Source: Amanita rubescens (Eukaryota > Basidiomycota > Agaricomycetes > Agaricales > Amanitaceae). Taken from it: a DNA stretch of 51,921 nucleotides. The stretch spans positions 1 to 51,921 of the forward strand of contig WION01000372.1 in assembly GCA_015039365.1 (NCBI GenBank). Reading direction: 5' to 3'. Under the pieces are notes generated by a model. It did not search any database and was not told the DNA's origin. It worked only from the letters and a program-made list of their open reading frames with translations. The position numbers were made by a program, and so were the translations under genes. Below are positions 7,637 through 50,510 of the stretch, in pieces. The stretch's first letter is position 1, and the number at the start of each line of letters is the position of its first letter.

Positions 7637-10600
7637 CTATATCAGCAATTCCAGCTCAAAGAAGACAGGGACTGAGTTACATAATAAATTGTTAAGAACT
7701 ATTTTCCTGAATTCAGCACACTCTTCATCAGATGGGTGATGTTTGATGGTGAACCAATCACCGATGTCCTTTGACCTCAAGTAGTGATCCACTTCTTGTT
7801 CAACCAGTGCATGCTGGGTCTTCAGATAAAGTTTCCAGGCCTTGGTGAAGCCATCAGTGGAATTGCAGCCTTGCTGGACAATCCAAAAGGAATGTTCAAG
7901 ACAAATAAGGATGGCTGTCCATGTAATGGTAAGAAACTGCAAATATAGAAAGGGTAGGATTAATCAGACCAAAGAGACAGTGCAAAGAAGGTGCCTATGT
8001 AATTGGGAATACTTGAGTGAAGGGAATGAAAGAAGGAAATATGACCTTACATTGAATTGAGTTTTCACAAGACCCTGAACATTGTTTACCTGTGAAATGT
8101 AGGCCTAGTATTAATGGAGTAGGGCAAGGAGAATGGATGGGAGAAGACAGGTACAAACTAAACAAATGTTAGGAATTCAAATTGAGCTAGGAGGCACACA
8201 GCGACTCACTGCCTGGATGGGATTTCATGGCAACATGTCAGCAATTCAAATTGAGCTAGGAGGCACACAGTCACTCACTGCCTGGATGGGATTTCATGGC
8301 AACATGTCAGCAATTCAAATTGAGCTAGGACGCACACAGTCACTCACTGCCTGGATGGGATTTCATGGCAACATGTCAGCAATTCAAATTGAGCTAGGAG
8401 GCACACAGTCACTCACTGCCTGGATGGGATTTCATGGCAACATGTCAGCAATTCAAATTGAGCTAGGAGGCACACAGTCACTCACTCGCTGGATGGGATT
8501 TCATGGCAACATGTCAGCAATTCAAATTGAGCTAGGAGGCACACAGTCACTCACTCCCTGGATGGGATTTCATGGCAACATGTCAGCAATTCAAATTGAG
8601 CTAGGAGGCACACAGTCACTCACTCCCTGGATGGGATTTCATGGCAACATGTCAGCAATTCAAATTGAGCTAGGAGGCACACAGTCACTCACAAACTGGA
8701 TGGGATTTCATGGCAACATGTCAGCAATTCAAATTGAGCTAGGAGGCACACAGTCACTCACTCCCTGGATGGGATTTCATGGCAACATGTCAGCAATTCA
8801 AATTGAGCTAGGAGGCACACAGTCACTCACATACTGGATGGGATTTCATGGCAACATGTCAGCAATTCAAATTGAGCTAGGAGGCACACAGTCACTCACA
8901 TACTGGATGGGATTTCATGGCAACATGTCAGTAATTCAAATTGAGCTAGGAGGCACACAGTCACTCACTTGCTGGATGGGATTTCATGGCAACATGTCAG
9001 CAATTCAAATTGAGCTAGGAGGCACACAGTGACTCACTGCCTGGATGGGATTTCATGGCAACATGTCAGCAATTCAAATTGAGCTAGGAGGCACACAGTC
9101 ACTCACAAACTGGATGGGATTTCATGGCAACATGTCAGCAATTCAAATTGAGCTAGGAGGCACACAGTCACTCACTCCCTGGATGGGATTTCATGGCAAC
9201 ATGTCAGCAATTCAAATTGAGCTAGGAGACACACAGTTACTCACTGCCTGGATGGGATTTCATGGCAACATGTCAGCAATTCAAATTGAGCTAGGAGGCA
9301 CACAGTCACTCACTCGCTGGATGGGATTTCATGGCAACATGTCAGCAATTTAAATCAAGTGAAGGAGGCACACAGCAGCTCACCTTCTAGATATGAGGTG
9401 AATCATTTCTATCAATTTGGAATTCTCCATGTAACTTGCTTATTACCTCCTATTCATGACATTCAGAAGTTACCTTCCTATCACTTTGAAATTCTCACAT
9501 CATCCCCCTTATCATTTGCATAATTATATTGTCAAATGAGCTTAATGTCATACTCACATACTGAATACCCAGATTAAACTTTGTCACCAATATTTGGTCA
9601 TGATACTTACATCCTGAAACAACTGTCATCACCATCTTCCCTGGCTCAAGTAGAAGTGGACTCTCACATAATCCTTCTCAGTTTCAGTCATGGCTCAAGA
9701 AAATGCATTCAATTTGCATACCTGCTGATAGCAATGTCCAAACCAAGATGCAGCCCTGTAAATCAAGTTATCCTTTGTTTATTTGAGCACTCAAATCTCT
9801 ACAATTGAAGAAAAAATGTACCACTGTTGAGGTATTCTCAAAGATAAACCTCATAGAGAGATGAGTTGAAGGAACAGCATATGAGTGGATGACAGACTGG
9901 TTCAATGCATATTCAATGCAGACCTCTAGGTTATTCTGTTGGACAGTGACAAACAACATCTTCAGTGCCATGTCATCAATTGATGACGCTGTCTGTTTGA
10001 TTAGTTCCCCAACTTGTTCCTGATGATTACCTTCATCCTCCTGGATAGCTGGGCATGCTATAAGTCCCAAGATTGGTCACTAAATGTGAAGAGACATACA
10101 TTCAAATCGCACATATGTGCAAGGTGGAAACTTGTAACCCTTAAGTGGCTTCTCAAATTTCTTCTCCAAGGCAGCACAAGCAACTTCTCTATTCTTCTCA
10201 TCATCTTCATTCCTATCATAGACCTGGGTGATGAGATCATCGAATTTCGTGAAGATTGCCACAACCGGAACTGTCTGTGGTCAGCCACAGTGAAGAGTCT
10301 GGAGATTCTAAATGATCTTACCATTGCCACATTGTTGCTCATTGAAGAACCTCTGTTCCAATCCCAATAACGGGCGAGATATGTCCGGGGCAAAACAAAA
10401 CCTGAACACATTGTCAGTTGCGCCACATAAAGGAAGGATAAAACTCACCATATTGCGTGTATTTGGTCCTTTACTTCATTCGCTTTTGCCTTCTCTTGTA
10501 TGAAAGAGACTACGTCCTGAAGTTCCTGCTCGCCTCCTGCCTCAAAACCAGGAGAGTCATGGAAGATGAACTGTGGGTTGCTCTCGAATGAAAACTCGTC

Positions 10601-11083
10601 ATGGACATTATGAATCCCTCGCTACAGCATCAAAGTCAACAACCTGGTTCAACTAGAGAAATGCACAAGGATCACCTTCGAGGTCGGGTTAATCTGTCGG
10701 TGGAAGGGATGATGAAAGTGAGGTATCAATTGAAGCGGATATCATACCTTGCTGTAAACTGGATCCTCCTTCGTATTGCAGACCCGCTTCAGCAGCGTCG
10801 TTTTACCGGCATTCGCCCTCCCGATAACGAGGATACGGAAGTGGGTGTACTTGGCCCGGAGTTTCGCAGCTTCTTCCGGGTCGGTCGTCATCGTTAATGC
10901 AGTTTTCGCAGCTTCTTCCAGGTCGGTCGTCATCGTTGATCCAGTTTTCGCAGCTTCTTCGGGGTCAGTCGTCATCGTTGATGCAGTGGGCGTGCTCTGC
11001 GATCCCCGTCCGAACATCTTCTTCAGGCGATTGGAAAGTCCTTTAGACCCTTTGGCAGTCTGTGGCGGGCGTTGGTCAGCCAT
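7637..11083 (-). CDS. P-loop GTPase (G-domain) protein with a C-terminal array of single-codon micro-exons
   Basis: My model has about 33 exons and encodes roughly 477 aa. The G-domain exons are 10748-11083, 10676-10693, 10449-10621, 10322-10401, 10100-10270, 9850-10048 and 9722-9755; all junctions keep frame and total exactly 337 codons. Exon 1 starts MADQRPPQTAKG, carries a threefold TMTTDPEEAAK repeat, then G1 GRANAGKTTLLKR. G3 is DSPGFEAGG and G4 is TKFDD, so nucleotide binding is likely. After the phase-0 end at 9722 come very small exons: 9668-9673 or 9668-9676, 9611-9613, 9558-9560, 9499-9507, 9447-9449 and 9384-9386. Then follow 17 one-codon exons (8210-9316), another at 8155-8157, a 13-codon exon (8051-8089, VNNVQGLVKTQFN) and the last exon 7637-7936 (FLTITWTAILICLEHSFW… to the stop). 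All are phase 0. The catalytic cycle, location and partner are unknown. The neighbour on the same strand is a kinase. Confidence 0.8.
8158..9386 (-). repeat. 69-bp tandem array: 66-nt near-identical introns plus 3-nt variable micro-exons
   Basis: Seventeen variable triplets lie at 8210-8212 and every 69 bp up to 9314-9316. On the - strand, in transcription order from 9314 down, they read CGA GCA GGA TTT GCA CAA TAT TAT GGA TTT GGA GGA CGA GCA GCA GCA GCA. Each 66-nt spacer begins GTGAGT, has a CTGAC branch motif with its A at position 41 (25 nt before the end), no AG between that A and the end, and finishes CCATCCAG. I find only five substitutions across the 16 complete spacers (8331, 8932, 9031, 9229, 9238), none touching the GTGAGT, the branch motif or the AG. 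A diverged 67-nt intron (9317-9383) precedes the core. A 52-nt intron with a CTAAC branch (8158-8209) follows it. Confidence 0.9.
9387..9721 (-). other. Non-repetitive micro-exon zone upstream of the core array
   Basis: On the - strand, short exons are bracketed by acceptor and donor signals: GATTAT or AAGGATTAT (ending 9668, donor GTGAGA), GAT (9611-9613, CAG before and GTAAGT after), TAT (9558-9560, CAG and GTGAGT), GGGGATGAT (9499-9507, donor GTGAGA) and GAG (9447-9449, TAG and GTAATA). The AAG at 9384-9386 (CTAG and GTGAGC) follows. The implied introns are 45-60 nt and unrelated in sequence to the 66-nt core introns. All exons are multiples of three and in phase 0. The GAT and TAT exons are the clearest; the 9-nt and first exons have weaker acceptors. 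Confidence 0.6.
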
Positions 11084-18128: not shown

Positions 18129-21100
18129 CTAGTTCTGTTTCGCCAGACGTTGAACAACAGGAAGGAGAATGGTACCAAAAGGCTGAAGATCAGAGTCAGA
18201 ATCGAAGAAGCCATAAGGATCATCTTTCGAAACATCAGCAGCTTCCTTGGGAAAGAATAACAGCTTCATAAGCTGGACATCTGTTTCTTGCCCATATTCG
18301 AGGATGTAACTCAAGCGCGGAGCGGACGACCCATAGCCGACAGGCTGCGATCCCCCATTTGCCTTCAAAAGCTGGCCAAGTTTAAACTGTCCACTGGGTG
18401 TTGAATCGTAGGTTGCTAGTAGCATATGGGTCAGAAAGATGATATTAACATTAGTTATGCGTTGAACGCAGCTACTCACTTTGGTCGAACACACCAAAGT
18501 TAATGTGGTCAAAGGACAAGACTGCCATGTACAAGTCGCATGTCGTGTTGTTGGTGACCCTCAAGCCGTAGTAATCTGAGAGTGTGTCCTCCTTCTCGAT
18601 GACAACATCGATGACACCGTCGCGATAGAGATTCGGCATGATATTGATAGGGGTATCAAAAGGGTCGTCGACGTCGCCTGATAATTCTAGTCTCGTGAAT
18701 TCGATTTGGATCTTCTCCAGATCAGAATTCGGTGCTGACACCCCATTGAAGCAATTGTAAAACCGGAAGAATACGGCAGCATCCAACACCGCGCCGTAGA
18801 CATCGGTAGCAGAAGATGGGTCGAGTTTATGATAAGTACGTGTCAGCTCGTATCGCGTGACGACAGGCTCCAATATATTGAAAACCAGTTTATTATTGTC
18901 CACGGTAATCCACTTTGCAAGTTTATCCTTGGGAAGATTCTCCAGCATGGCTGAAGATCCTGCAGCGCGAAGATAGTGCACGATGAGAGTCAGATTGCAA
19001 GCAAAAGGTTGAAGAAACATACCCCGAGCAGCAATCTTACACAATAGCGACGCGCCAGCTTCTTTCACCTTTTCAGCCTCGCTCCCGAGCATCTTACAGA
19101 CCAACTCGAGGTTGGGATCGGCATCGCTAATCGCTTCAGCTCCTTGGGCTAGAAATGTTAAGGAATGACGCTAACAGCAACCATGGAGCCGAACGTACAA
19201 AATGAAGCCATGAATTGCAGACGCCCGGTGAAGAAAGTGTCGTGAATATCGTTTTTGGCTAACTCAACAGTTATCGCTGCACCGCTTGAATAGTCGAAAA
19301 GGTCCATTTCCAATAGATGCTGAAGCCCATCCGCCCAATCAACGTTATCCTTTTGTCCCCTGCAAAGTATGTGTTCCCACTCTATTTCGGCCCCGCTTTT
19401 CAGAAGCGTTGCTTTCGGTTTATAGTTGCAATGTATGAAAGCGACGGAGGCATGGACCTTCTGGCCTGGCTTGATCTTACGAGCGCCAGCTAAATTGGGC
19501 CACCTGAAAGCTTCCGTTAAACAATCGTATCCATTCGCCACAATGATCTGCATTACCAGGTGTAGTGCGCCTTTTCAGTATAAGACAGCCGCTTGAACGG
19601 AAAAATTTCGAGAAAGCGCCATCCTAGAGTGAGTGATTCCTTGGGTTTACTACCCCGTAGTTTGTCCCAGTTCCATTCGAATTGGGTTGGGTGCAGCTTA
19701 AGACCAGCGATAAGAGCTTCATTTCCCATCCAGAGGACTGGAACGGAGGCATTATTCAGCTCTGCATTGCTCTGGCCACCACCACCACTATGTATGGGCA
19801 AACGTCAGACACAACAATGGGATGATTAGAACTCAGGAACGAACATACATGTCGGAGTGGCACCCTGAAAACCAGACTTCTTTGACGCTGTCATGGTCTC
19901 TATCCCCTTTAGGGTCTTCTGATGGAGGTATGTATGACTCTCCACCAAGTACATACTCGGGCAGAAACTTCACACGGCGCTCATCCAACGCAAGTGCATG
20001 TCGAAAATAACAGATACCGTCATTGAACTCATCCGTCATTCGTAAGCTCTTTCCTCTAATCACGCCGATAGAGGAGACTGTGTCCCTGATAATGCTCGTA
20101 AGGCATAATAGGATTGAGTTTAGAGTTATTTAGACACACCACACCCCAATGAAGTGGACTTTTACATCTGGACGAGAGAACGTTTTCTTGAAACGATCAG
20201 GAAGCTTGTCACCACAGCCCTTGTTCAGATCTGCATACAGTTCGAAGGCACTGACAACAATCTGAAAAACTGAGCACCGACAACAAACGACAAACATACA
20301 ACGGGATCTGTTCTTCGTTGCCTGGCAAGATGAGTCCAACCTGGAGATGTCTCAGAGGTAAGCGCCATCAGGCGTAAGAAAATCTCACTTTGCTGATCAT
20401 TCCCGCAAGCGCTCTGACCTGATATGCGCCTCGGGAAAACCCTTTGCAACGAGAACTTGTCAGCGTGTTCCCTGTTATATTGGGGAATACGCAACATACC
20501 AAAAAGAAAAATTCTATCACCAGGTTTATATTTATCTGATAGCCAGCGGTAACCGGCAAGGATGACTTTCTCAAAGTTCCTAGAAGTGGTATTAAACGAG
20601 TTGTATGATAGCACATAGCTTGACTATACCATGCGATGGCGAGATCGATTTTGTTGCTCACAACCTGTTTCCAGTACCTAAGGGACGTAAACGATGGTCT
20701 TGCGTAGGTGCCAATGCCACTATTGTAGTATGTAAGTTGGGTCTCATCCTTGACAATACGGGCATAGAGCTCGATGACGTTCGTATTCTGTCATGGCATA
20801 GATTTAGTGAAAAAATGCAGAAATTGATAGGAAGATAGGCAACATTTTCTCCGAACTTATTCGAGGTCCCGTCGAAACAAAGGATGAGATTGCGACCGTC
20901 TTTCTTTGCCTTGCAATGCTTGCAAGGGGATAGATCCTTTCCTTTATCGAATTTTATGCGATCCTTCTCTTTATCGTATATGGGATCCTTATCTTTATCG
21001 AGTATGCCATCCCTACAGAAAAGGGCTCCTTGTTTGAGCTCATGCCCGCGAGTGAGGGTCGGATGTGATGACGTACCTAGGAACATAAGGGGATGGGGCC

Positions 21101-21446
21101 CGGGAGCTTATGCCAACTTCTTGGTCGTATATGCGATCCTTATCTTTATCGAGTATGCCATCCCTACAGAAAAGGGCTCCTTGTTTGAGCTCATGCCCGC
21201 GAGTGGGGGTCGGATGTGATGACGTACCTAGGAACATAAGGGGATGGGGACCGGGAGCTTATGCCAACTTCTTGGTCGTATATGTGATCCTTATCTTTAT
21301 GAAGTATGCCATTCCTACAGAGAAAGGCTCCTTGTTTGAGCTGATGCCCGTGAGTGGGTGTCGGATGTGGTGACGTACATAGGAAGATCAAGGGATGGAG
21401 CCCGAGAGCTTACGCCAACTTCTTGGCGTGGTGGGGAAGAAGACAT
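18129..21446 (-). CDS. DUF2235 alpha/beta-hydrolase with fungal C-terminal extension
   Basis: The start is ATG 21446 (MSSSPPRQEVGVSSRAPS). The N-terminus is low-complexity and built from tandem exons ending YDKEKDRIKFDKGKDLS. It then carries a CKHCKAKKDG motif and the DUF2235 core: ILCFDGTSNKFGE, NTNVIELYARIVKDE, YYNSGIGTYAR, the nucleophile elbow GFSRGA (split by an intron at about 20450), and WFSGCHSDIGGGGQSN with the catalytic His/Asp region (about 19800-19870). A C-terminal part of roughly 450 residues follows (LTRTYHKLDPSSATDVYGAV, RVTNNTTCDLYMAVLSFD, LKANGGSQPVGYGSSAPRLS, ending RLAKQN at TAG 18129). Such tails accompany both DUF2235 and caspase-like domains in agarics. The DUF2235 family includes Tle1-type phospholipases; the fungal substrate is unknown. 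The layout suggests an intracellular hydrolase. Confidence 0.8.
20985..21425 (-). repeat. 151-bp tandem repeat: triplicated exon/intron unit of the DUF2235 gene
   Basis: Units start near 21001, 21152 and 21303 with a 151-bp period. On - each contains a 64-nt intron (GTACGTCA…TTCTGTAG) and an 87-nt exon. Full copies encode DGILDKDKDRIYDQEVGISS-RAPSPYVPR or close variants. The exon ends in phase 2 and starts by completing the codon, so adding or removing a unit keeps frame. The first exon (MSSSPPRQEVGVSSRAPSLDLP) and the last, diverged copy are also recognisably related. Confidence 0.85.
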
Positions 21447-27174: not shown

Positions 27175-30100
27175 ATGCCGTCCCCCATGGGAGAATTGTC
27201 AAATATAGCGCCCGTGGGACCAGGCGGTCAAAGCGGGTCGAAGATCGTGGAAGCAAACCTTGGCAAATATCATATTCATGTGTTCCGCGAGCTGATATGT
27301 CCGAAGGAAAACGGAAAACTCTCGTGAGTTCGCCCCGTTGGCATAACTCCATCACTCTCCGTAAGTTCACCGTCCAGCATAATGGCAATGTCTTACTATC
27401 GATTGCAGTCGCTGGCCAATAATGGGATGTCCGAGTCTCCCTCTGATCCGAAGTCCCTCGAAAAGGAAATCAGGCGCACTTCCGTCTGCCTTCAGACCCT
27501 CATTCGTTTCCCCGTCAGCGCGAGCTGTACCATATCGAATCTCATACCTATCCACCTCATCTTCGCGAGCAACAGCTCCTGTTCTGATAACTTTCGACGA
27601 CTGGGATAGGGGCGGTATCTTTGACTGGTACAGAAGTCTCCATCGCACCGCCATCCACAGAATCGAACTCTGGAAGGAAAGGGACGACTTCAAGCACGAG
27701 TTTGTCGTAATCCATTTGGAAAGCGGAACTCTTTACCGCCTTGACAGGAGGCCATTCGGAGGAGCGAATCCCGACGCCGTTACTGTGAAAGGGTGCAAAG
27801 CCGAAGACAGTGTAACCCTCGTTGACAGGAAGCAACGAGAAACTATCGCATCGAAAGCAGACGTGCAGATTTCGGTGGACTTCAATGGACACAAGAAGCC
27901 CGATCTGTACACTGTTGTCGCTATCTGCGTCAGTGTTCAGATGGACGACCAAGCTAAAAACTATACGTTGCAGCAGTATAACTGCTACTTCCTCGCACGC
28001 ACCATTGTTGCTCTCCTAGTCCGTCATCACTTGCTCCAGCAGTTCGCGTCTCTAGAAGGCATCAGGTGGGACACCGTAGCTGCATCGACCTTCCCGAGGC
28101 ACATTTTCGGCAATAACGGGGCTGTTTTGGATCGGGCCCAGAGATCCGCGTTAATTACAAGCCTTGAAAAGAGGCTTTGGCCGATTGTCAAAGCCGATGC
28201 GGAGACACTCGTTCGAAAGCAAAAACATTGGCATCAACTTCAATCGATCATGAAGGACGTCATCCGTGATACCACTTCAAGGTTGGAAAGCTTGGTTGTC
28301 GATTCGGTGAAAACTGGCGCGAACGAATGGGTTATGGCCGCGATACAAGCAACTTTATGGCATGGTAATCTCGAACGGAATTTGTCAGAGCCCCGTTACA
28401 GACGCAGCTATGAAGAATCAGTGGCAAGCGTCTTGAAGAGAACTGTCAGCAAGGAACTCCAGAAGGAACTACCTCGGAGGATGGTGTCCAGGCTCGGGGA
28501 CATACTCCCGCAGCGTCTCTTCTCCAGGCTTCCGCCGTCGCTACTCGCAAATTTACCTCCAGAGCTTCTAGCTCGACTTCCAGCGAGAGTCCTTGAAAAA
28601 CTTCCACAGGATATTCTTGTCAATATGCCTCCAGAACTCCTATCACAATTACCTCCGGAACTTCTGGCGCGCATTCCAAAGAGTATTATCGAGAAACTCC
28701 CTGATGAACTGCTCGTCAATCTCCCGCCCGCGCTACTGGAAAATATGCCGCCGGAACTCTTATCGCGTATTCCGGTCAGCGTTATGGAAAGGTTACCGGA
28801 CGATTTCTTCGCCCGATTACCACAATCTCTACTGGAACGAATGCCTCCAGAGTTCATAGCGCGTATTCCTGTTAGCGTAATGGAGAGGTTACCTGCCGAT
28901 CTTCTTCTCCGACTGCCGCACTCCCTACTTGAGGCTTTGCCGGCGGAAGTCCTGACTCGTATCCCCATTAGCGTTATTGAGAGGTTACCAGATGACCTTC
29001 TCGTTCGGCTGCCATGTTCTCTACTCGAACGGATGTCTCCGGAATTTATGGCGCGTCTTCCGGTCAGCGTAATAGAGAGGGTGCCAGATGATCTGCTTGT
29101 TCGACTACCACACTCCTTACTTGAAAAATTGCCTCCGGATCTCTTGGCCCGCATTCCCACCAGCGTCTTTGAAAGATTGTCGGATGACCTTCTCATCCGA
29201 TTACCACATTCCTTGCTTGAAAAATTGCCTCCAGAGTGCTTGAAACGGATTCCAATCAGTGTACTGGAGAGGTTACCCGACGATCTCCTTGTTCGGTTAC
29301 CTCGTTCTTTACTCGAGTCTATCCCTCTCGAACTCTTAGCTCGCATCCCAGTCAGCGTCATAGAGAGGTTGCCTGCTTACCTCCTGGGCCAACTACCGAA
29401 CTCCGTACTTGAGATTATTCCTCCGGAACTCTTAGCCCGTATTCCGGCGAGCGTCCTTGAGAAACTCCCAAGTAATCTCCTCGCGAGGTTACCAAATCAC
29501 GTCCTAGAGAAGTTGCCGAATGATCTCCTTGGCCGGCTACCAGCCTCCCTCCTGGACAGTCTACCACCCGAGCTCTTGGCTCGAATTCCCATCGACGTCC
29601 TTGAGAGGTTGCCCGACCCCCTCCTTGCCGCTTTGCCTCCGTATCTCCTTGAAAAAATGCCTGCGGAACTGCTAGGACGTATTCCGGTCAGTGTTCTCGA
29701 AAGGCTGCCGGACGAACTTCTCGTCCGATTACCATCGTCTCTATTGGAAAGGTTACCAGTCGGCTTATCAACTCGCATCCCAACAACCTTGCTCGAGAGA
29801 TTGCCGAACGACCTTCTCGTCAGATTACCACCTTCGTTCCTTGAACGACTTCCTGCCGAAGTCTTGGCACGTATCTCTTCTGCCGTGCTCGAGAGACTGC
29901 CCGAAGAACTCCTCGCTAGTCTTCCGCCCACTCTCCTTGAAAATCTCCCTGTTGAACTTTTAGCGCGCATGCTGAGCGTTCTCAATGACTTGATAGACGA
30001 TCCACCTATTAAATTGCCTGCTGATCGAGCCTCGAAGTCACCAGAAGAATTCGTACAGTTACTCCATGACAATTTGGCTGCGCAACTTCCTAATGTCATT

Positions 30101-31177
30101 TCGTTCGCGCTGAAGGGAGATTTAGGGGGCAGTGCTCAGGGAAACCTTAGGATCGTATTGCAGGGCATGCGGGTCATGTTCAAGGACACGCCTGATCATC
30201 CAGATCAAGGATTACCCGAGGACTTGCCAAAACGCCTCCCAGACCAATTAAAAGAGCAATGTAATCAATGCGAAAGTGGATCCTCGGCGATGCCAATCGG
30301 CTCTCAAAAAACGGTTTCTCCCGAGCCACCGGCTATCTCCACGGCCGTGGCGCCAATCTTCGGGCCTGCTGTTTTAGAGGCGGAGGCCGAGAAATCCCCT
30401 GTTGAAAGGACGGCTACCGACCTATCGACGACTTCCATTGCAGAAGCTCAATTCAGCATCCTCGGATTGGCACTGACCGTCACACCTCGCTTTGTCCTTG
30501 AACAGCTTCCATGCATGATTTCCTTATTCCCGATATCATGGTTGAAAACAATTCCGCCGAAAGCTCTTGGAAAGCTGCCGCCCAAGTGTATGGCCAGATT
30601 TCAAGCACAATGCCTCGAGCGACTGCCTCAAGAGCTCCTTGCCAATCTACCTCCTTCGCTGTTGCAGAATTTGCCACGGGTGACACTCGAGAGGCTCCCG
30701 ACGACTCTTTTAGCAAGATTGCCCGTATCGATCCTGAAGAATATCCCAGATTCATTGCTGGAAAATCTACCGGAAGATCTCTCCGATATGATATGCCAGG
30801 CTTTAGCGTCTGAAAACCTTATAAGTCAGGAGATGATGAATGAAATCGTTAAGAGCGTTGTGGAAGTCGTCAAGGAATCGTTGTTGACATCATCAGGCGA
30901 TCTACCAGAATCCATTATCCGGGTTTCGGTCAAATCGCGGTCGAGGGCGAAGGCGTCGGGCAACCTGAAGACGTTAAAGAGGCATGAGGAGTTACAAAAC
31001 CATATCCTTGACATGACCCGGAGACATAGCAAAACGGTCGCTCAAGTTTCTCGCTTTGGTCTTGGTGAAGAGGCGGTCTACAATGGGTTGCGAGATAAAA
31101 CAGAGGATGTATGGAGGACTATGCGTTCTCATGGAACCCCTCCCAAACGTTTTGGCCGGATGCTCGGCGGAAGTTGA
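27175..31177 (+). CDS. Giant Leu-Pro octapeptide-repeat protein with papain-fold-like N-terminal region
   Basis: Exon 1 (ATG 27175, MPSPMGELSNIAPVGPGGQS… GKLS) splices at about 27324/27409 in phase to one long exon ending TGA 31177, about 1,300 aa in total. Residues near 130-260 form a compact domain with KHEFVVIHLESGTLYRLDRR and QQYNCYFLARTIVALLVRH. The His and the Asn-Cys pair recall NlpC/P60-LRAT-type papain folds, but that is tentative. From about 28510 to 29970 the protein is roughly sixty consecutive octapeptides of the form [LIM]-P-x-x-[LVF]-[LIM]-x-[RKN]. They are arranged in a 32-residue super-period (PPELLAR, IPVSVIER, LPDDLLVR, LPHSLLEK types). A second, shorter block lies at about 30560-30790. 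No membrane helices are evident. Function is unknown; a solenoid or coiled scaffold is plausible. Confidence 0.75.
28510..29970 (+). repeat. 24-bp (octapeptide) repeats with 96-bp super-period
   Basis: The DNA repeat is heavily diverged at third codon positions while the protein pattern is kept: Leu/Ile-Pro at positions 1-2, aliphatic at 5-6, basic or Asn at 8. Four octads form a higher-order unit of 32 residues (96 bp). Codon-level divergence with strong protein conservation points to old repeats kept by selection rather than recent slippage. Confidence 0.85.
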
Positions 31178-47629: not shown

Positions 47630-50510
47630 TCATTGGTCGTCGGGATCTGGCATGGACTCCTTGGCAATGTGATTCCACGCCGCGTACGCAACACATGTGG
47701 ACGATTCGCCTTTGACCCACCACTCAGACAAAAGTGCCTTATGGTGTTCAGATATCCAAGAAGCCCAAAATTCCATCATATACTGCAAAATATTGCGGTC
47801 TTTGTTATCCCTCGCATCCAACGTTGCACCATTTTTACAAAAAAGCTCAATGACGCGCTTGAGCCATGTCATCGTCAGGTGCTCCGGCTCTGAGTCTTCG
47901 AACTCGTAAAAGAAAGAGTCCAAGATATACGAATAGTTTATTAGGAAAAGCCTTGGAACCTGATTCACCACACCGCGCAGAGCGCGTAAATCGTAATCAT
48001 CCAGAGGCTTTTCCATCTCCGTCTTGTCCAGCAAATGGAGGGCGATCTGTCTAAAGGCTATCCATGACACGCGCCAGTGATTTTCAGAGCGGAAGGCGTT
48101 CAGGACGGGTGCGACCTTGGCAGCTAGGTGAAGCGGCGTGGCAAGGTTGACATCTCGACAGTCGACACGTGCACCTCTTTCGAAGAGAAGGGTGAACACG
48201 GATTCAGGGCATTTTGATGATGCTGCGAGATGGAGAGGTGTCCACTCTTTCTCTGTTGTTTTCGCGTGGACGTTGGCATTGTGATTGAGAAGGTGCTTTA
48301 CGGTAGTCTCGCGATCTTGGTGAGAAGTCATGTTGGCAACGGCGTCATGAAGAGGCGTTGAGCCTTCTTCGTTGCACGCGTCGACTTCTAACCCGTTTTG
48401 TAAGAGAAACTTCGACGGCAAATGCGATGCTGTAGCCCGCTGCGGCGTGCAAGGGTGTATCGCCTTTCTTGTTCTTGCAGCGTAGATCGGCGCCTTTGGC
48501 TACCAATATTTGCAAGAGTTCCAGATAAATGTGGGAATATCTTATCGCTTCTGATTCGTCATCTCCTGGTTCTGAAAAATCCCGGGCGAATACGTATTCG
48601 ACAGCCGCAGCAGCGATGTGGATCGCTGTGTTCCCTTCTGAATCTGGTGTATCTAGCTTAGCTCCGTGCTGCAAGAGCAGAGTCGCACATGATACAGCAT
48701 CGCGCTTGGGATATGACATTAACAAGTGCAGTGGTGTTCTGTTCGTGCTTCCAGAACCGGTGACTTTGTTGACGTCTACTCCTGTTCGGATTAAAGCCTC
48801 GATCATTGTAGGAGAACGAGATAGTTCTATTGCGGTATGTAGAGCGTTGAATCCTCTATGATCCTCTACCATCAATTCCTCTGTGGTGAAATGAGGAATC
48901 ATCACCGGAAGGTCGAACAAGACTGCTATGTGCGCAGCGTCTATACGTTCCAATTGTTCATCCATATCCATCCGATCAGATGACTGGGAGTCTTGGTTTG
49001 ATATCGTTTTGTACAGACGTTTCCACGTCTCGATGGTTTCCGATCCTGGACTAAAGAACTCTTTGAAATCCGGGCTAGAGTGTCACTTCCAGAGGCTCGA
49101 ATGTGGTCGTGCAAATGAGAGACTGCGTAGGAAGCAAAGGAGTTGTCGGTTAATACCGCGTTACTATCATTCAGATCCTTGATTCTGAGCCTAAGGTACG
49201 ACAAGCACAACTTCGCAATGTCATTATGGACATCGGCAAGTGGGTGAAGAGCGTATTTTACGAGTGATTCCGTCAACTTTGCCGGTTGCCCGAGTAAGAA
49301 TTCTTTTAGATCTGGACTGAATGGTAAAACCACCGGAGGTTTCGAGTCGAGATCACACGTGAAAAGGTCTGCAACAAGGTGTTCAGGATTGGATGTAACC
49401 TGCGATGGATCCCATGTGTGATGTTCCATGTTTAGTGTTGCTATGCCATCAGCCAACTCGGCAAGTTTGAGTGGTCGGAATGCGCCGAGGACTAACCGCA
49501 AAACATGACGTGTGCGCTCGGAGGACGCGTGCCGGTTGTCAACCAACAGTAGTTTGTGCAGGATATCTATATCTGTTCCTTGCGGGAGAGCTTGTCGAAT
49601 TGCATCATCTGTATCTAATCCTTGTAGTTGGGGTAATAGATATAGCGGCCAAAAAAAGCTATTACTTGCAAGTCACTAAAATGTCGTGAAAGAAAGGGAA
49701 TAGACCACCCACGATCCACGGGCATCCGACACCAGCTTGAGGACAAGTTCATCGGCGAAGGCCGGGTCCTGAATCTTCATTCCTTTGACTTGCTTTTGTA
49801 CGAATTCCTTCAAGTCTTCGGATACATCTTCGGGACTAATTTCAACTTGTATGGAGTTCTGAAACGTTTCAGTGGAGTCGGATTGTACGCGGGTTGTCAC
49901 AAATATCTTGAATTTGGCGGCTAGGCGACTGAGAGTTCGGAACACCGATGGCGTCGAGTCTCCACACTCGTCCAGTGAATCAATCACTATGAAATCATCC
50001 GCCTGCCCGTGCTCCCCGGCGAGTTCCAACAAGAGAGATGGAAGATCTGTCGTATTTGAGAGTCCAAATGCTGACTTGGTAGGACGGAGTCCTTCGAGTT
50101 GGATAAGAAGGCTTTGAAAGATGGTTGTAGAGGCGCAATTGGCAGAGTCACAGTAGAAGAATGCAAGCGCCGAATTCGTATGTTTTTGGCTTCTTTTGAT
50201 GTCTTCTATCACGACCGAGCTGCGTAAATTTACTCTTTTTGTTGTTCCGAAAGACGGACATACAGGCCTTCGTACCTGAGCACAGTCTTGCCTGTACCAG
50301 CTGTTTTGAGAAAATTAGACTAGAAAAAAGGTATTAGGAACTGAGACTCGCTCACCGGACCCATTAGAACAAATAGACTCGATGATGATCCCGTCTTCCA
50401 TGAATTGTATGTGGGATTTTGGAGGAGCCATTCTCCCCGCTCGCGAGTGATCTCGTATGATGGATCTCACTTGATCATGCCTCTCATTACAATCGATGGT
50501 GGAAAGTGGA
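47630..50510 (-). pseudogene. NACHT-ankyrin STAND receptor (NLR-like), frameshifted
   Basis: Order on - is: linker PLSTIDCNERHDQVRSIIRD; P-loop AGTGKTVL split by an intron at about 50300-50355; RSSVVIEDIKRSQKHTNSAL; Walker B FIVIDSLDECG (about 49965-49995); IFVTTRVQSD; a winged-helix-like LPQGTDIDILHKLLLV and LGAFRPLKLAELADGIATL; then ankyrin repeats (HRGFNALHTAIELSRSPTMI, TPLHLLMSYP, GNTAIHIAAAAVE, GDTPLHAAAGYS, STPLHDAVANM, WTPLHLAASS, ATPLHLAAK) to TGA at 47630. Two defects are visible. The ankyrin frame shifts between SIAFAVE and KFLLQNGLEV at about 48410. The 40 codons before the P-loop are out of register with the expected EWLLQNPTYNSW/FVLMGP frame, shifting back at the P-loop. Such receptors act in fungal self/non-self or pathogen sensing. 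It is a pseudogene unless these are assembly errors. Confidence 0.7.

Follow-up and report, generated by a model that had tools for sequence, protein, structure and literature searches.

A probable tandem array of one-codon exons between near-identical introns in a GTPase gene family of Amanita rubescens

Tens of codon-sized microexons are spliced in the nank (NACHT-ANK) genes of Tuber melanosporum, where they are described as a mechanism of diversification through alternative splicing; this account is taken from three papers citing Iotti et al. 2012 (PMC4986451, PMC3689799 and PMC10197012). As summarised in one of them (PMC4986451), the NWD genes of Podospora anserina (het-d/het-e) carry repeats that are homogenised within and between family members, and a few codons diversify under selection. 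For the micro-exon genes (MEGs) of Schistosoma, exons of 3-81 bp, introns of up to 5 kb and secreted variable products are described (PMC10526429). In Fusarium, CYP621A is reported to have a single constitutive one-nucleotide exon (PMC12940212), and the introner-like elements of fungi are described as many near-identical introns within one genome (PMC4457414).

We analysed a window of 51,921 nt from Amanita rubescens (contig WION01000372.1), by which we mean the whole stretch of DNA and not the feature under study. A GTPase gene on its minus strand contains a 69-nt tandem repeat at 8158-9386. We consider it likely that this repeat is a tandem array of one-codon exons, which would be spliced and joined into a variable loop peptide. 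A preliminary description of the same DNA knew of no precedent for this arrangement. Given the reports of truffle nank microexons, a system of this kind is already known; what appears new against those reports, as cited above, is the GTPase, the homogenised introns and the divergence confined to codons. Among the literature matches listed, none dealt with codon arrays, whether in Amanita or in GTPase genes, most subscription journals lying outside the coverage.

The array and its gene in the window

On the minus strand there are 17 triplets at a spacing of exactly 69 nt, from 9316 down to 8210, each preceded by ATCCAG (the CCATCCAG side of the junction) and followed by GTGAGT. GCA occurs six times, GGA four times, CGA, TTT and TAT twice each and CAA once, with no stop codon, and the predicted peptide has 17 residues (RAGFAQYYGFGGRAAAA). 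The 16 full spacers hold five differences from their consensus in total, and Tandem Repeats Finder reports a period of 69 with 17.6 copies at 8166-9383. Number of triplets, period, codon counts, absence of stops and the five substitutions had all been given in the preliminary description, and each was reproduced when we recounted.

The spliced gene model that we predict around the array (Table 1) has 32 exons, 21 of them of 3 nt, and a complete open reading frame of 475 residues; its introns, 42-120 nt long, are GT-AG in 31 of 31 cases, and its exon ends were placed by hand with relatives as a guide. Of the Pfam families with E up to 1 (12 listed), MMR_HSR1, a GTPase family, alone scores above its cut-off. 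Six Amanita gene models of the family all end ahead of the array. The phase-0 flanking exons proposed earlier agree with our model; for the exon ending at 9722 the phase-0 end holds, to which we add a probable start at 9772. Beyond what had been seen before, the model contains five more tiny exons ahead of the array (GAT, TAT, the 9-nt GGGGATGAT, GAG and AAG). At the GAG exon, window-type copies show another acceptor context. The intron after the AAG exon is a diverged array unit of 67 nt, and the AAG exon is without a normal acceptor at two of the other loci, L022 and L021, the latter having no AG acceptor.

Table 1. Features of the predicted GTPase gene, in gene order (window coordinates)
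Feature	Position	Strand	Basis
Exon 1: start codon, P-loop GRANAGKT, 42-bp coding repeat (10862-10987)	10748..11083	-	Pfam MMR_HSR1, splice model
GTPase exons 2-6: 10693-10676, 10621-10449, 10401-10322, 10270-10100, 10057-9898	9898..10693	-	splice sites, frame; pN/pS for exons 3-6
Exon 7 (9849-9822, weak GAG acceptor) and exon 8 (9772-9722, weak AAAG acceptor), phase-0 end	9722..9849	-	boundaries after annotated relatives
One-codon exon GAT (Asp), outside the 69-nt array	9611..9613	-	27/27 loci (GAG in one); D of the homologues' DYG
One-codon exon TAT (Tyr)	9558..9560	-	27/27 loci; Y of the homologues' DYG
9-nt exon GGGGATGAT (Gly-Asp-Asp) or variants	9499..9507	-	26/27 loci
Probable one-codon exon GAG	9447..9449	-	15/27 loci by the search pattern used
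One-codon exon AAG (AAG or AGG)	9384..9386	-	22/27 loci
Predicted array of 17 one-codon exons and 16 introns of 66 nt	8210..9316	-	splice-site anatomy, splice model
Codon order of the array: CGA GCA GGA TTT GCA CAA TAT TAT GGA TTT GGA GGA CGA GCA GCA GCA GCA			
Exon VNNVQGLVKTQFN, first after the array (intron 8209-8090)	8051..8089	-	splice model, pN/pS
Last exon: C-terminal helical domain (..AILICLEHSFW..) and stop codon	7637..7936	-	C-terminal matches, pN/pS, homologues

The 42-bp tandem repeat in exon 1 has three copies and is in frame (MTTDPEEAAKT..), and the length of this exon varies among copies of the family. Elsewhere in the window, a single-exon ORF of 1,251 aa (27422-31177, plus strand) has many Leu/Pro-rich repeats (LPPELLARIPxSVLERLP..), with a DNA period of 96 and 68% matches at 28745-29290, and resembles another diverging repeat protein. 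An ORF of 263 aa (47630-48421, minus strand) is ankyrin-repeat-like by eye, and a 151-bp tandem repeat of three copies with 93% matches lies at 20974-21426.

Extent of the gene family and conservation of splice signals

A search of the 75.7-Mb assembly for the exact junction CCATCCAG-NNN-GTGAGTGACTGTG returned 485 copies, against none for a reversed control, so the pattern is not due to chance. All 485 lie inside 27 arrays (26 further loci and the window), and every array occupies the same position within a single GTPase family. Allowing up to three mismatches per side, these arrays hold 633 units, 4-41 each. The codons are GGA (189), GCA (94), CGA (86), TTT (76), CTT (69), CAA (51), GAA (21) and GTT (18), followed by AGA (12), TAT (6), TGG (3), TTA and AAA (2 each) and four singletons, with no stop. 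The triplets had been thought to vary freely; they do not, since the first eight of these codons fill 604 of the 633 units and the window array is identical to that of locus L013. In all, 17 of the 61 sense codons are used. The absence of stops is weak evidence alone, 17 random codon types being stop-free with a probability of 0.39, and that the eight commonest codons all encode different amino acids is also a weak test (chance probability 0.21). A second intron type (GTGAGTTGCT) gave five matches in the A. rubescens genome, two exact and three with one mismatch.

A P-loop motif (RILVIGRANAGKTT-like) stands ~1.4-1.5 kb upstream of the array in 25 of the 27 loci, and in L015 the distance is 3.5 kb; the P-loop region is absent at L023, leaving 26 of the 27 loci checked with a P-loop. 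For the C-terminal exon, 28 candidates were scored and 27 matched at E up to 0.001, all of them behind an array; the one at C134:31421 follows array L020 at a distance of ~8.6 kb, two matches are the halves of a single copy, and L011 has no C-terminal exon in reach. Four of the 27 matches carry one stop each, so some copies of the family have probably decayed. Most distant copies share homology from ~7.2-7.6 to 11.1-11.2 kb, which is the gene itself. L013 is a near-copy of the window, L024 of L014 and L032 of L031, and these three may represent second haplotypes or duplicates of recent origin. They are included in the unit and codon tally, the column entropies and pN/pS, and omitted from the substitution-event, junction, neighbour/synonymous and antisense counts, the column ranking and the linker composition.

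Over 531 units of 69 nt (near-duplicate loci included), the three triplet columns have entropies of 1.51, 1.78 and 0.89 bits, and the maximum among the 66 spacer columns is 0.36 bits; GT and AG are invariant throughout. To avoid ascertainment through the splice sites, we also located units by the intron body alone, a test that omits spacers whose body has indels or more than eight mismatches. It gave 458 junctions between intron bodies, of which 435 were standard (18 nt), and AG-NNN-GT is kept in 435 of 435. Changes were counted in 2 of 3,480 cells at AG and GTGAGT, compared with 54 of 3,045 at the seven remaining junction positions. The exon is 3 nt in 454 of the 458 junctions: the 23 non-standard ones comprise two 6-nt exons, one of 2 nt, one of 4 nt and 19 of 3 nt, and the 2-nt and 4-nt exons (2/458 junctions) would break the reading frame. 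Both 6-nt, two-codon exons lie inside arrays (ACTGCA in L014 near 5216 and GGCCCA in L027 near 4939, oriented coordinates). Of 240 substitution events, 5 fell on the nine splice positions (p = 4e-10; these positions are themselves covered by the unit filter used); a body-only filter without indel handling (p = 0.015) was discarded, as it read spacers with indels out of register. The earlier picture of constrained introns around diverging one-codon exons thus extends to 27 arrays, the splicing itself being something that we infer from sequence.

The same junctions bear on whether the whole array could be one long intron, with its donor at AAG or TAT and its acceptor at 8089, so that the repeat would be an intronic minisatellite and the triplets untranslated. 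The product that skips every triplet is also in frame and complete, and an almost loop-less relative exists in Laccaria (P0020). However, a minisatellite needs no internal GT and AG, yet every standard junction keeps them; it offers no reason why variation should be concentrated in three columns; and the transcript-like homologues described below have long peptide strings at the site. A single long intron is improbable in our estimation.

Coding constraint was compared on both sides of the array. Taking 12 representative copies together, exons 3-6 have a pN/pS of 0.26 and the two exons that follow the array one of 0.54; for the latter pair, L011 was too short and was left out, and L020 is mostly gaps. 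The short exons 7-8 give 1.08. In a gap-tolerant alignment of 26 copies (one mostly gaps), no in-frame stop occurs in the first 102 C-terminal codons. The repeat unit itself has stops in all three sense frames. With these frames closed and the downstream domain under coding selection, the C-terminal domain would need the array to be spliced.

Turnover of codons and homologous proteins

Close paralogues have flanks that are 96-100% identical and codon strings that are very different. L015 and L029 are identical over the compared flanks (1.000/1.000) at an array edit distance of 14 of 29; L016, L023 and L025 have identical downstream stretches at array edit distances of 17-24; and in group A, flanks 97-100% identical go with distances of 12-19, the window and L013 being at 0. 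In groups A-C, the edit distance is ~45-86% of the longer array, the window/L013 pair excepted, and spacer identity between arrays is 0.96-0.999. Between the window and L013 there are 72 differing sites in 9.6 kb, none of them in the 1,284-bp array region, so the codons are not fast-changing at that pair. The arrays of L016, L023 and L025 begin with four AGA units (one CGA in L025) at 68-nt spacing, a sub-block common to the three.

Adjacent triplets are identical in 158 of 543 cases, against a shuffle mean of 100.8, and 0 of 2,000 shuffles were as high. This enrichment, with the array lengths of 4-41, points to duplication of units. It counts against an intron invasion, in which an introner-like element would have been copied into every codon boundary of a low-complexity linker and the codons would be host sequence, as does the confinement of all 485 exact junctions to one gene family. 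Such copying would directly yield near-identical introns around unrelated codons, and the site is occupied by a Gly-rich linker in other lineages; we nevertheless judge it quite unlikely.

Synonymous change within the triplet is limited to 3 minor codons among 480 (Arg left out), about the level of an intron column. This rarity, and the use of so few sense codons (17/61), are difficult to reconcile with a mutational mechanism targeted at the triplet in place of selection on the peptide. Targeted mutation would account for strong variation in the triplet columns only, but a mutator acting on three bases should yield synonymous codons and stops too, and we give this explanation little credence. 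Overall, the pattern suggests shuffling of units combined with selection favouring altered residues rather than a mutator.

The C-terminal domain is shared by ten database proteins (P0067, P0070, P0082, P0083, P0087 and P0146-P0150) whose contigs are 960-1,554 nt long. Eight of them run through the Amanita intron positions without insertion, and P0149 and P0150 have insertions there that resemble retained introns; these short contigs appear to be cDNA-derived. Six of the ten have DYG where the array would lie, and the remaining four have the close variants DYE, YYG, EYG and EYD. K/N-T/E/K-E-like residues follow, as the joins of GAT, TAT, GGG.. and GAG predict; in L028 the 9-nt exon reads GKT, matching the DYGKTE of homologues, and the joins would read DYGKTEK. 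Next come strings such as ARGFAFAGFRRFAVGAGAGRFGAGA (P0067), GGLGGGRLGGRLGHLRLGLGGRGGGLGHLRLL (P0070) and WYGGRYGRYGGGYGG (P0087), and then the C-terminal domain. The eight-residue alphabet of the arrays makes up 91% of the linker in P0067 and 94% in P0070, against a background of 52%. With linker ends chosen by eye, the array composition beats background in 4 of 12 scored linkers (P0067, P0070, P0148 and P0149) and is below it in eight, the homologues being compared at the protein level.

When the unit is translated in antisense, it matches 25 proteins (sources jgi, ena, src and once ncbi), among which the repeat occurs in each of the three frames, as expected from a 70-nt unit (worked out by hand, P0121). 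Residues at the triplet vary, with 13 kinds at LT-X-WMG (44 sites) and 12 at TH-X-LDG (41 sites). The variable site at the triplet and the three frames together point to similar arrays elsewhere, some with another unit length. A scan of DNA with CTGGATGGGATTTCATGG gave two stretches in viral_contigs and six in genome_contigs, with one match each and no array. In another lineage, P0151 and P0152 seemingly contain a different repeated intron (VSCSL..NWMT on read-through), and the two sequences suggest microexons with unrelated introns there.

Proteins of this antisense type raise the question of whether the plus strand codes for a 23-residue repeat protein (WMGFHGNMSAIQIELGGTQSLTX) with the triplet as its variable residue. 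In the window, one frame of that strand runs for 299 codons without a stop, and database proteins with this repeat exist. However, unit length is not divisible by three in 47 of 531 cases, and such a unit occurs in 13 of 24 arrays; substitutions make 30 stops (22.7 expected) and 47 synonymous changes (53.4 expected); and the database relatives, being in all three frames, look like antisense reads of similar arrays. With a frame free of selection and non-triplet unit lengths, the antisense protein was rejected and has almost no chance of being right.

Proposed mechanism and relation to known systems

In the mechanism that we propose, the near-identical introns of 66 nt would be excised individually and the triplets joined, giving 17 residues here and 4-41 in sister copies. 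Each short intron has a putative GTGAGT donor, CTGAC branch motif and CAG acceptor of its own and so could be recognised across the intron; because nearly all exons are exactly 3 nt, intermediates and skips would remain in frame. Units would be duplicated, lost and exchanged within and between arrays, with selection retaining the splice signals and favouring altered codons. The introns would thereby form a scaffold kept uniform by homogenisation, and the codons would supply a small alphabet (mainly Gly, Arg, Ala, Leu, Phe, Gln, Glu and Val). It is from comparison of the loci that we infer both splicing of the array in A. rubescens and selection on the triplet residues.

The joined peptide would connect the GTPase domain to a C-terminal helical bundle as a disordered loop; disorder is predicted for residues 296-312 of P0025. 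In overall shape the model resembles immunity-related GTPases (IRGs), and its fold may be IRG-like: by Foldseek and VIA-align the IRGs are the best matches, with the G domains of septin and EngB close behind in score. We speculate that the loop may be a recognition or specificity surface, the family a repertoire of sensors for non-self or rivals, and the splicing combinatorial. Wider still, and to our minds possible but rather doubtful, would be a mushroom-wide one-codon cassette system, in which IRG-like GTPases vary non-self recognition loops in an alphabet of ~8 residues by germ-line shuffling of units and, as every skip would stay in frame, by alternative splicing into many variants within each cell, with lineage-specific introns.

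If confirmed, the array would be the extreme form of exon shuffling, with one codon as the unit of diversity and a homogenised portion made up wholly of intron, and a natural test of the minimal exon size that the spliceosome accepts in long runs. The truffle microexon mechanism would then have a counterpart in an unrelated protein family of another fungal phylum, and an unannotated, possibly immune-like repertoire would have been missed by gene finders.

The closest parallels each share part of this arrangement. Like the micro-exon genes of Schistosoma, as described, the locus has very small exons, some of 3 bp, and would give variable products; unlike their kilobase introns, those of the window model are 42-120 nt, and the array is a tandem of near-identical 66-nt introns. 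As reported, CYP621A has a fungal exon that is even sub-codon in size, but a single one and not an array. Known introner-like elements spread through many genes, whereas the 485 exact junctions (exact copies searched) are all at one position in one gene family. Any likeness to the mammalian IRGs Irga6, Irgb6 and Irgb10 would be at the level of the fold, with ~10-13% identity, and no IRG/IIGP model is among the 12 Pfam families listed (E up to 1); a variable loop is not known from IRGs.

As in the NWD genes, going by the account cited, repeats are alike within and between paralogues and codons are diversified, the exchange here being deduced. The NWD repeat, however, is a translated WD unit, whereas here the homogenised part is predicted to be intron and only the codon translated; among the same 12 Pfam families there is no WD family, and the sense frames are closed. 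As the citing papers describe them, the Tuber nank genes likewise belong to a fungal family that has expanded, and they have tens of consecutive 3-nt exons, a feature that we recognise here by splice-site anatomy. They encode an ascomycete NLR with NACHT and ankyrin, in contrast to a basidiomycete GTPase for which neither NACHT nor ankyrin is among those 12 families. In our reading, this basidiomycete GTPase family, with homogenised tandem introns and divergence confined to codons, is a new variant of the truffle-type mechanism.
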